From contig CACEXV010000003.1 in assembly GCA_902563575.1 (NCBI GenBank), positions 62,001 to 126,000 of the forward strand: a DNA stretch of 64,000 nt. The letters run 5' to 3'. The translations under genes were made by a program, and so were the position numbers. Shown here one piece after another: positions 2,684 through 36,623 of this stretch (positions are counted from its first letter, which is position 1; each line of letters starts with the position of its first letter). The DNA is from an uncultured Pelagibacteraceae bacterium. Lineage in GTDB: Bacteria; Pseudomonadota; Alphaproteobacteria; Pelagibacterales; Pelagibacteraceae. Under the pieces are notes generated by a model, which was not told the DNA's origin, searched no databases, and saw nothing but the letters and a program-made list of their open reading frames with translations.

Positions 2684-3879
2684 TATTTAATTTTTTTTAA
2701 ACCTTTTCTTAAGTCATTAATTAAATCTTTTGGATCTTCTAAACCTATATGCAGTCTAACGATATATTCATCTTTATCAAATCTATTAAATTGACGTCCT
2801 TTTAAATATTCGTCTTTTTTAGAACTTTTTATTTCTTGTAAAATAGCTAGACTTTCAAATCCGCCCCAACTGTAACCTATTCCAAATAGTTCAAGAGAGT
2901 TCACAAACTTAATAACTGAAGATTTTTTTTTACTTTTGATAACAACTGAAAGTAAGCCCGTCGCACCAGAATAATATTTCTTCCAAAGTTTATAATTTTT
3001 ACTAGAGGGATTATGAGGGTAAAGAATTTCTTTAATTTTTTTTTGTTTCTTAAGAAAATTAACTACTATTCTTGTATTTTCGCTATGTTGTTTTAATCTA
3101 GTATCTAAAGTTCTTAAACCTCTTATAATTAAATAGGCCTCATCAGCTGACATTCTATAACCAGATAATTTATAAAAAAACATTATCTTGTTATAAACCT
3201 TTTTATTAACAGCTAAAGAACCTCCCATTGCGTCAGAGTGTCCTGAAAAATACTTAGTAGCGGAGCAGAAAGACATGTCAAAACCTATTTTTAAGGGTTT
3301 AAGATACAAGGGTGTTCCCCAAGTATTATCTAATAAAGTATATATCTTTTTTCTTTTTGCCAGTGAAGTTATTTTAGATAAGTCTTGAAATTCAAAAGTA
3401 TTGCTACCTGGGTTTTCAACTAAAATCATTTTAGTTTTTTTTGAGACTTTTTGTTTTAAATCTTGAAATGACTCTGGGTTGTAAAATTTTGCATTAACAT
3501 CAAATTCTCGCATCAATTCCTGAGAAATTTCTTTGGTAGGACCATAAACATTGTCTGAAACCAAAATTTCATCGCCTGGTCTACATAAAGACATGAGCGC
3601 TAAAGCTATGCCGCCGAATCCAGTTCCAGTTAAAAAAACATGATAAGCTTGCTCTAACTCCTTTAACATATTTTCAAGTTCTATTGTGGTCGTGCTTCCG
3701 TATCTACCATAAGTGAAATGGCTAACTTTTTTGTGTTTTTTTACTTTTATTTCATGTTTGTACATTTCTTGCATTGAATTGAACAAAATAGTTGAGGCTC
3801 GAGTAACTGGGGGGTTAGCAGATCTATTAGTATTATCTTTTGTAGGGTGTTTTAAAAATGTATTAATAGATTTTTTCAT
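2683..3879 (-). CDS. metC: Cys/Met metabolism PLP enzyme, cystathionine beta-lyase-like
   Basis: A 398-residue type I PLP enzyme of the trans-sulfuration family. The Schiff-base lysine is K209 in SATKYFSGHSD, and the phosphate-binding YGRYGSTTT motif is at 57-65. Length matches cystathionine beta-lyases, which split cystathionine to homocysteine, pyruvate and ammonia in the cytoplasm; gamma-synthase or methionine gamma-lyase activity cannot be excluded. I chose the ATG at 3879 because an in-frame start 19 codons upstream adds a non-conserved tail running into the divergent promoter region. It overlaps the downstream MFS gene by one base. Confidence 0.84.
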   Translation of the reverse strand: MKKSINTFLKHPTKDNTNRSANPPVTRASTILFNSMQEMYKHEIKVKKHKKVSHFTYGRYGSTTTIELENMLKELEQAYHVFLTGTGFGGIALALMSLCRPGDEILVSDNVYGPTKEISQELMREFDVNAKFYNPESFQDLKQKVSKKTKMILVENPGSNTFEFQDLSKITSLAKRKKIYTLLDNTWGTPLYLKPLKIGFDMSFCSATKYFSGHSDAMGGSLAVNKKVYNKIMFFYKLSGYRMSADEAYLIIRGLRTLDTRLKQHSENTRIVVNFLKKQKKIKEILYPHNPSSKNYKLWKKYYSGATGLLSVVIKSKKKSSVIKFVNSLELFGIGYSWGGFESLAILQEIKSSKKDEYLKGRQFNRFDKDEYIVRLHIGLEDPKDLINDLRKGLKKIK

Positions 3880-3940
3880 AATATTTAATTGAACTTTATA
3901 TAACTTTGAGTAGATTGGATACCTAAAAGGAGGCAAAAGT

Positions 3941-4024
3941 ATGGGTTATCCAAAAAAACACAGAGGCCGTAGAAAAATCGGCTCTAAAAAAAGAAGAGCT
4001 AGAAAAAGAAATAAGAGAAAATAA
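3941..4024 (+). CDS. 27-residue highly basic microprotein
   Basis: The frame encodes 27 residues starting MGYPKKHRGRRKIGSKKRR, with about 17 Lys or Arg and no acidic residue. A near-consensus Shine-Dalgarno AAGGAGG lies at 3927-3933, seven bases before the ATG, stronger than most ribosome sites in this window. It sits in the divergent gap between metC and a membrane protein gene that begins 14 bases after its stop. Size and charge resemble rRNA-binding peptides such as bTHX, bL37 or mS38-like proteins, and the RGRRKIGSKK core is weakly reminiscent of bTHX, but I do not recognise it as any of them. A ribosome-associated role is inference. Confidence 0.68.
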   Translation: MGYPKKHRGRRKIGSKKRRARKRNKRK

Positions 4025-4038
4025 TCCGAAAATTATTT

Positions 4039-4737
4039 ATGAAAGATATAACTCAAATAAGAAAATTGAGTTTATGGATATTTATTGTTCCTTTTATAGG
4101 GGTAAACCTTTGTTTATTAATTTCAGTAAATTATTCGATATTTGAAAATACAATTTTTATTGTAGATCAAATAGGAAGATCTAAATTCACCATTCCTTAC
4201 ATCGATGGAAGTTTATCAATTAGTAGAGCATCTAGAACTTACCCTCAGTATTTGATTTTTAAGCCAGCAATGTTTGTTACTAGTGTTCTTTTAATTTTTT
4301 ATTGGTACAAAACCAATAGTTTAATTCAAAGATTTCAGCAAACAGAAAAGAACTTTGTGTTTAAGTATTTTGGTGTTGCCTCAGCAATTTTATTATTAAT
4401 ACACGCAATTTTTTTAGGCATTGAGTTTGATAGTAAAATAATTAAGTTTCTTAGAAGAGTAGTTTTGCTAGGCTTTATAATATCCGAAATAACAGCTCAA
4501 GCATCATTAATTTTTAATTTTTATAAAATTAAGAGGAATATTATAGATTATTATAATCATAGGATATTAATTTTAAAAACCATCTTAGTTTCTATTTTAA
4601 TTTTGGTTGCAATTCTCTCAATTCCAATCTTGAATGAAGAAAGCAATGTACACTTCAAGCACGGATTAGAATGGAATTATTTTATTGGAGTAATTCTATT
4701 TTATCTATTGACTAATTTTTTTTGGAAGAAGGAATAA
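4039..4737 (+). CDS. Frag1/DRAM/PGAP2-like multi-pass membrane protein
   Basis: A 232-residue protein with about six hydrophobic segments (near residues 10-32, 75-92, 107-126, 138-160, 175-197 and 210-227). The loop after helix 1 (IDGSLSISRASRTYPQY) and the closing EWNYFIGVILF segment recall bacterial relatives of the eukaryotic Frag1/DRAM/Sfk1 family, which act in membrane lipid handling. That assignment is pattern-based, and no bacterial function is established to my knowledge. It starts 14 bases after the basic microprotein gene, so the two probably share a transcript. Confidence 0.72.
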   Translation: MKDITQIRKLSLWIFIVPFIGVNLCLLISVNYSIFENTIFIVDQIGRSKFTIPYIDGSLSISRASRTYPQYLIFKPAMFVTSVLLIFYWYKTNSLIQRFQQTEKNFVFKYFGVASAILLLIHAIFLGIEFDSKIIKFLRRVVLLGFIISEITAQASLIFNFYKIKRNIIDYYNHRILILKTILVSILILVAILSIPILNEESNVHFKHGLEWNYFIGVILFYLLTNFFWKKE

Positions 4738-4742
4738 CTCAA

Positions 4743-4916
4743 AGATTTGGGAGCGCTGGGCTCCACAAATCTTAAGTTTTGGTTCGTCGTTTTAGGCGCT
4801 ACCGCCGAACCCCCCGATCAACTATTTTAGCGCTACTCAGTTGACCTTTCTGCCCTCTAAGCTTGGACCTCTCGGTTTTTCCTTAGTTGGCCAGTTAAGA
4901 GTTGCCTCTTAATTAA
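4743..4916. ncRNA. G+C-rich structured RNA candidate, unidentified
   Basis: This gap between two convergent genes is close to 47 % G+C over 180 bases, far above its surroundings, and is packed with inverted repeats. One is a long arm at 4742-4774 (AAGATTTG and GGAGC pairing with GCTCC and CAAATCTT). Others are GGTTC/GAACC enclosing GGCG-CTAC-CGCC (about 4781-4810), TCAACT/AGTTGA (about 4818-4844), and TTAAGAG-TTGC-CTCTTAA (4896-4913). There is no good reading frame. I looked for SRP RNA, RNase P, tmRNA and 6S landmarks and found none convincingly. Strand is undecided. Confidence 0.6.
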
Positions 4917-4983
4917 GATCATTAAATCATATTGATAAAAAATATACTATCACCTAATAGGTGACACGTTTAAAGTGTGTGAG

Positions 4984-36435: not shown

Positions 36436-36590
36436 ATTTACCCCATCTGTCATTGACCTGAGAGATTTGCTCCTTCGGTGAGGCCTTAGCCTGCTTTCCA
36501 GAGTTATTATGCCGACGGTCCTTTTGCCTGAGAGTTTCCGGGGTGGTTGCTCCTTCGGCGCTAATTAAATTAGTCTCTCCCGTCGAAGCG
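36436..36590 (-). promoter_or_regulatory. Tandem glycine riboswitch upstream of gcvT
   Basis: On the minus strand two glycine aptamers follow each other. The first runs from GACGGGAGAGAC (about 36587) through CCGAAGGAGCAA to ACTCTCAGGCAAAAGGACCG and closes near 36511. The second runs from CTCTGGAAAGC (about 36503) through CACCGAAGGAGCAA and ATCTCTCAGGTCAATGACAG to about 36440. The gcvT start follows about ten bases later, leaving no space for a terminator, so control is probably translational. Glycine riboswitches on gcvT in SAR11 are established knowledge. Confidence 0.96.
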
Positions 36591-36623
36591 GTAAGATGTT
36601 ATAATTTGACTGAAAAGTCAAAC

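Follow-up and report, generated by a model that had tools for sequence, protein, structure and literature searches.

The window (the whole 64-kb stretch of DNA that was analysed) contains a short frame that encodes a very basic microprotein of 27 residues. A Shine-Dalgarno sequence precedes it, with the ATG 7 bases further on, and this heptamer occurs once on each strand of the window (Table 1). The near-perfect ribosome binding site reported in an earlier note on this DNA was thus confirmed. That note had also counted about 17 Lys or Arg residues and no acidic residue. Acidic residues are indeed absent, and Lys plus Arg amount to 16 of 27 (8 Lys, 8 Arg; 59%), reaching 17 only when His is included. 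Among the 1093 start-to-stop frames of 20 to 60 amino acids in the window, with every in-frame start counted, no other had a Lys plus Arg content of 50% or more. The G+C content of the frame, said to exceed that of its flanks, was 0.33 against 0.27 in the 60 bp upstream and 0.23 in the 100 bp downstream. The contrast is modest, as flanks of 500 bp gave 0.32 on the upstream side, which is largely taken up by a neighbouring gene, and 0.26 on the downstream side.

Table 1. Features of the microprotein locus and RNA elements in the window, with window coordinates.
Feature	Position	Strand	Basis
Presumed promoter region; upstream intergenic, common to the divergent aminotransferase-like gene	3880..3926	+	Inferred
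Shine-Dalgarno sequence AAGGAGG	3927..3933	+	Read directly
Basic microprotein MGYPKKHRGRRKIGSKKRRARKRNKRK, 27 aa, with stop codon (ATG at 3941, stop at 4022-4024)	3941..4024	+	Sequence, conservation, codon evidence
IMES-2 RNA (RF02035)	4779..4919	-	155 bits
Glycine riboswitch aptamer (RF00504)	36506..36592	-	68 bits

The 5' neighbour is divergent, lies on the reverse strand and was named by eye as a cystathionine-lyase-like aminotransferase gene. A scan of window positions 3700-4200 for the sigma-70 consensus promoter returned no match. On the 3' side, a membrane protein gene starts 14 bases past the microprotein stop codon; its product matched Frag1 (PF10277) weakly (E 0.003, under the cut-off). 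The IMES-2 RNA lies approximately 0.75 kb downstream of the microprotein gene, between the membrane protein gene and mnmA. A glycine riboswitch aptamer was also detected in the window.

Conservation was assessed in f1, the microprotein's own family within SAR11; f2 denotes the sister SAR11 family. The comparison comprised 72 f1 loci, which were mostly best-ranked matches together with 28 chosen genomes, out of 219; one further locus (L073) was excluded as it was cut by a contig end. These loci comprised 70 distinct DNA sequences encoding 15 proteins, every one 27 residues long. Without correction, pS was 0.518 and pN 0.070, giving a pN/pS ratio of 0.135. A lower ratio of 0.052 was obtained for 45 f1 sequences of one type and is biased, as this subset was picked by protein identity; codon-position identities are likewise biased, their subset having been picked in the same way. 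Positions 1, 3-12, 14-16, 18, 19 and 25 were invariant across the 72 loci. At most of these positions the codons themselves vary, with wobble changes and AGA/CGN exchanges for Arg among the differences. Because the frame is conserved and has changed mostly synonymously in these 72 loci, it is more than a chance open reading frame, and the pattern of substitution identifies it as a genuine, conserved protein-coding gene under purifying selection. The comparison of the frame and its codons in relatives, proposed in the earlier note, therefore came out on the side of a protein. The same note had named a conserved RNA structure as the alternative. No Rfam family overlapped the frame at gathering score, and the conservation pattern is that of a coding sequence.

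Translation signals at the f1 loci were variable in strength. In the 20 nt upstream of the start, 43 of the 72 loci have AAGGAG and 55 have AGGA; the remaining copies have a weaker Shine-Dalgarno sequence or none. In 15 loci an in-frame stop codon precedes the ATG by no more than two codons, and an alternative upstream start is available in 5. Residue 2 is Gly, Ser or Ala, each of which would permit removal of the initiator Met.

In a first sample of relatives, 25 of 61 genomes contained a match, all within the genus of the window (25 of 37, its own genome counted). No copy was found in the 24 f2 genomes of this sample, nor in 7 f2 genomes searched with a wider profile. The flanks of mnmA in three f2 genomes contained few basic frames, and none with the motif. 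At order level, 219 of 297 genomes matched, covering 6 of 11 genera, in a listing that omits 58 negative genomes. Each listed genome had a single match, and all 11 single-contig f1 genomes among those listed were positive. A gene of the mnmA type, named by reading, lies within 1.5 kb of the microprotein gene in 21 of 23 f1 loci, spanning six genera. Eleven of the 20 listed f1 negatives were checked for MnmA. Ten gave no MnmA hit either (E <= 1e-20), and in the eleventh (G154) the hit runs off the contig on the flank expected to hold the microprotein gene. As a control, near full-length MnmA hits were obtained in two positive f1 genomes and in three of four f2 genomes. Since mnmA is also missing or cut in all 11, the f1 absences are best explained by missing assembly, and gene loss within f1 finds no support. 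The ten genomes lacking both the peptide and mnmA (G020, G035, G014, G212, G069, G071, G102, G158, G161 and G178) are 87-99% complete, which suggests that something at the locus repeatedly breaks assembly or binning.

Beyond SAR11, the core YPKKHRGRRKxGSxxRR was found in HIMB59-type bacteria, in MarineAlpha6 and in one further alphaproteobacterial family, as well as in 8 Gemmatimonadota genomes, one gammaproteobacterial bin and 26 viral contigs. At class level, 13 of 385 genomes matched at E <= 4.2e-10 (f1, 5; f32, 3; f25, 4; f142, 1). The tally at E <= 1 was 125 genomes, the rest starting at 0.003 with partial matches, many within longer frames; these were taken as chance matches as a group and not read singly. 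The core is kept in the profile-found f32, f25 and f142 copies, and a near-identical peptide in HIMB59 MED-G104 (L144) links f32 to the HIMB59 group. At phylum level, two of 398 genomes matched at E <= 0.01, both of them f1. An exact-motif scan of genome contigs gave 52 loci: 46 in alphaproteobacteria/Pelagibacteraceae (including HIMB59 MED-G104 and two MarineAlpha6 bins), 5 in Gemmatimonadota/Gemmatimonadales and 1 in the gammaproteobacterial bin. This was the sole scan covering other bacterial phyla, and its motif excludes Lys16, which drops most SAR11 copies.

A profile search of 249 Gemmatimonadota genomes returned 7 at E <= 0.01. Six are real (G1062, G1064 and G1066, known beforehand; G1080, G1264 and G1285, new) and the seventh match lies inside a 572-codon frame; counting G1063 and G1065, the total for the phylum is 8 genomes. 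Three Gemmatimonadota loci (L201-L203) were found by profile and missed by the exact motif, with the core retained. The G1264 copy is located in a 5.5-Mb contig and is therefore no binning stray. Among 369 gammaproteobacterial genomes, the only match was the seed genome itself. When a prophage origin was considered for the copies in Gemmatimonadota and in the gammaproteobacterial bin, their neighbours looked by eye like ordinary chromosomal genes. Neighbours outside f1, also named by eye, include an MFS transporter and an msrB-like gene (f32), a sigma-factor-like gene (f25) and tsaC- and ilvC-like genes elsewhere. Many HIMB59-type loci (among L130-L181) carry CTATTATACGCCGTC immediately 5' of the ATG, which by eye resembles a -10 element and would make the start leaderless. 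The gene is present in HIMB59-type bacteria and f1 and missing from f2, a distribution that may be relevant to the debated position of HIMB59 or may reflect transfer.

In two bacterial phyla and several viral contig groups, the first 19 residues, MGYPKKHRGRRKxGSxxRR, are near-fixed; the tail at the C-terminus differs among copies in length and in its order of Lys and Arg. An exact motif was used to retrieve the 26 viral and 52 genome-contig loci, and YPKKHRGRRK is therefore fixed in them by construction; the fairer evidence of invariance comes from f1, f32, f25, f142 and Gemmatimonadota L201-L203, where the search relied on protein or profile similarity.

The 26 viral contigs were retrieved from IMG/VR, and a second search pattern returned the same 26. 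They fall into at least three gene-content groups. Twelve carry a capsid block, with a 154-aa gene and a GroES-like gene in all 12 and a major capsid protein gene in 11. Nine have HNH/exonuclease-type surroundings with an HNH gene, five of these also encoding an endonuclease I similar to the T7-type phage enzymes. Three contain dCMP-deaminase, HD or phosphoesterase genes, and two were unplaced. The longest viral version is 40 residues. Longer tails include GLRIRKRKK in phages and a similar type, GLRLRKK, in some Gemmatimonadota. Two cultivated phages of HTCC1062, HTVC023P and HTVC027P, have the same capsid type (67-69% identity). The motif was absent from all seven related phage stretches that were read, these two included. 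Different short lysine-rich frames lie upstream of GroES in three of the seven (L183, L184 and L185) and are possibly analogous small basic proteins. A cultivated carrier phage was sought through the neighbouring genes and none was found; a direct tblastn search with the peptide gave no match, and the BLAST low-complexity filter may mask this query.

These viral settings bear on the main rival to a ribosomal or RNA role, namely that the microprotein binds DNA as a nucleoid or condensation peptide, protamine-like, neutralising DNA in tiny cells and packaged DNA in phages. A Lys/Arg content of this height with no acidic residue would suit such a peptide. The capsid-gene position in 12 of 26 viral contigs and the lysine-rich frames that precede GroES in three same-capsid relatives fit a virion or DNA role and speak against a ribosomal one. 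Non-specific condensation, however, needs no near-fixed Tyr, Pro, His, Gly, Gly and Ser, as seen in the profile-found members, and the other viral copies lie among HNH/exonuclease-type genes or dCMP-deaminase, HD or phosphoesterase genes. DNA binding was therefore considered rather unlikely.

The microprotein is, on balance, probably a ribosome- or rRNA-associated peptide that has so far gone undescribed and is sometimes phage-borne. One argument in its favour is that a purely electrostatic function would place no demand on fixed Tyr3, Pro4, His7, Gly9, Gly14 and Ser15. The combination of a fixed arm and a basic helix that drifts in sequence points to a single specific RNA contact plus a charge-driven clamp. 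The basic peptide would bind structured RNA, most probably in the ribosome, in the manner of the accessory proteins bTHX, bS22 and eL41. Its N-terminal arm, GYPKKHRGRRKxGS, would make sequence-specific contacts with one conserved RNA pocket, and the C-terminal basic helix would lie along the RNA backbone, where charge alone is needed. Phages would carry the gene to supply or replace the host copy, as has been proposed for phage-borne bS21. The 35-residue phage version was modelled with AlphaFold2, as the 27-residue window peptide is under the length limit. The prediction comprises an extended arm (residues 1-7) and a helix (residues 8-34), with a mean pLDDT of 83.7 and a pTM of 0.42. This single-helix model is weak evidence, as many Lys/Arg-rich peptides would be expected to yield the same. 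Against a ribosomal role, the gene lies outside ribosomal operons and its neighbours differ among clades. Its patchy range, absent from f2 and rare elsewhere, implies that no universal ribosomal site depends on it. An undescribed ribosome- or RNA-associated peptide of SAR11, as the earlier note had put it, is thus the most economical reading, with the correction that the peptide is not confined to SAR11. A fuller picture, which we hold to be plausible rather than probable, is that of a phage-mobile small ribosomal protein, single-copy in SAR11 and HIMB59-type bacteria and sporadic in Gemmatimonadota, with which several phage groups would fit host ribosomes to their own needs.

Binding to a non-ribosomal RNA, either a small RNA such as IMES-2 or in tRNA handling beside the tRNA thiolase gene mnmA, would be consistent with the proximity of mnmA at most f1 loci and of IMES-2 in the window. 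By eye, the neighbours outside f1 seem unrelated, though, so the link to mnmA looks like plain synteny, and such a role was judged unlikely. An antimicrobial or toxic peptide, cationic and either secreted or membrane-active, would share the high positive charge and nothing else; by eye there is no signal peptide or hydrophobic stretch, and a single match per listed genome with housekeeping-like conservation makes this function extremely improbable.

The gene was overlooked in the ocean's commonest bacteria, and its core recurs nearly unchanged in distantly related bacteria and in several kinds of phage. SAR11 are among the most abundant cells on Earth and have few genes per genome. The microprotein is probably important to them, as it is encoded once per genome, is present in all 11 listed single-contig f1 genomes and is near-fixed in sequence. 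That it recurs in phages suggests that it acts on a common molecular target, which may be the machinery of translation. Small basic proteins that came to notice through ribosome structures provide a precedent (PMC10618245), and a phage-borne bS21 that enters ribosomes provides a second (PMC6375957).

The earlier note had found no clear match to a known peptide, and no model in the libraries searched contradicted this. The window peptide gave no hit in NCBIfam, Pfam, PHROGs or the PDB (E <= 10 for the PDB), 25 family members gave none in NCBIfam or Pfam, and a 13-row profile (A2) found no match in the PDB at E <= 10. Control queries with bTHX and bS22, which are equally short and basic, do find near family members in the PDB, so the empty result carries weight. 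The query with mycobacterial bS22 missed the divergent proteins of Borrelia and Flavobacterium, and the bS22 proteins are themselves highly divergent, so the microprotein might still be a remote bS22 analogue. No publication containing the letters YPKKHRGRRK was found, and none of the titles listed on bTHX in SAR11, new small ribosomal proteins, small-protein surveys, Pelagibacter ribosomes and the spread of bTHX and bS22 concerned the microprotein. Intergenic screening of HTCC1062 yielded several misannotated coding sequences according to PMC2704228, and the microprotein gene may be among them.

A shortened relative of bL35 would account for the similar order of P-K, H-R-G, K, G-S and K-x-R-R in the two proteins, the stretch PKKHRGRRKxGSKxRR resembling the bL35 start PKMKTHRGxxKRFKxTGSGKxKR through descent or through the same 23S rRNA contact. 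With lenient gap costs the window peptide scored 47 against Bacillus bL35, compared with a shuffle mean of 36.3 (P = 0.03). At standard gap costs P was 0.65 and in other comparisons 0.06 to 0.77, all uncorrected over the 40 shuffle tests performed. There were zero Pfam hits, and bL35 is about 65 residues long, whereas the microprotein has 27 in all 72 f1 loci; the resemblance is borderline, and a relationship to bL35 was considered very unlikely.

Accessory protein bTHX is bound in the head of the 30S subunit. The microprotein belongs to the same length class (Thermus bTHX has 27 residues), has the same MG start and is similarly strongly basic, but has neither the GKGD nor the GTYGKxRP stretch of the Thermus protein. 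The earlier note had likened the charge and size of the peptide to those of bTHX, bL37 and mS38; a tie to bTHX or to mS38/bS22 is not supported. TIGR04560 (cut-off 26 bits) gave no hit for the window peptide or the 25 family members, and exceeded its cut-off in none of 41 SAR11 genomes (25 f1 and 16 f2), with sub-threshold matches in 4. Scores against Thermus bTHX were like those of shuffled sequences (P 0.46-0.99; four members, two gap settings) and show no kinship. With bS22/mS38 (PF08213) and eL41 the microprotein shares its tiny size, a Lys/Arg content of approximately 60% and a tendency to escape annotation; a single helix, as predicted for the 35-residue phage relative, is common to many basic peptides. 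PMC10618245 describes bS22 and eL41 as single basic helices, reports an unannotated bS22 with 61% Lys/Arg in Borrelia ribosomes and places bS22 in the small-subunit pocket h2/h27/h44/h45. The bS22 chains seen, however, have no counterpart of the fixed GYPKKHRGRRKxGS arm. PF08213 (COX24_C; cut-off 23 bits) gave no hits and was over its cut-off in none of the same 41 genomes, with one sub-threshold match. Scores against the mycobacterial and Cutibacterium proteins were no better than those of shuffles (P 0.23-0.87) and likewise show no kinship with bS22.

The bS21 of pelagiphage HTVC008M is unlike the microprotein in sequence. According to PMC6375957, phage-encoded bS21 enters E. coli ribosomes and, like the microprotein, is a small protein common to SAR11 hosts and aquatic phages.
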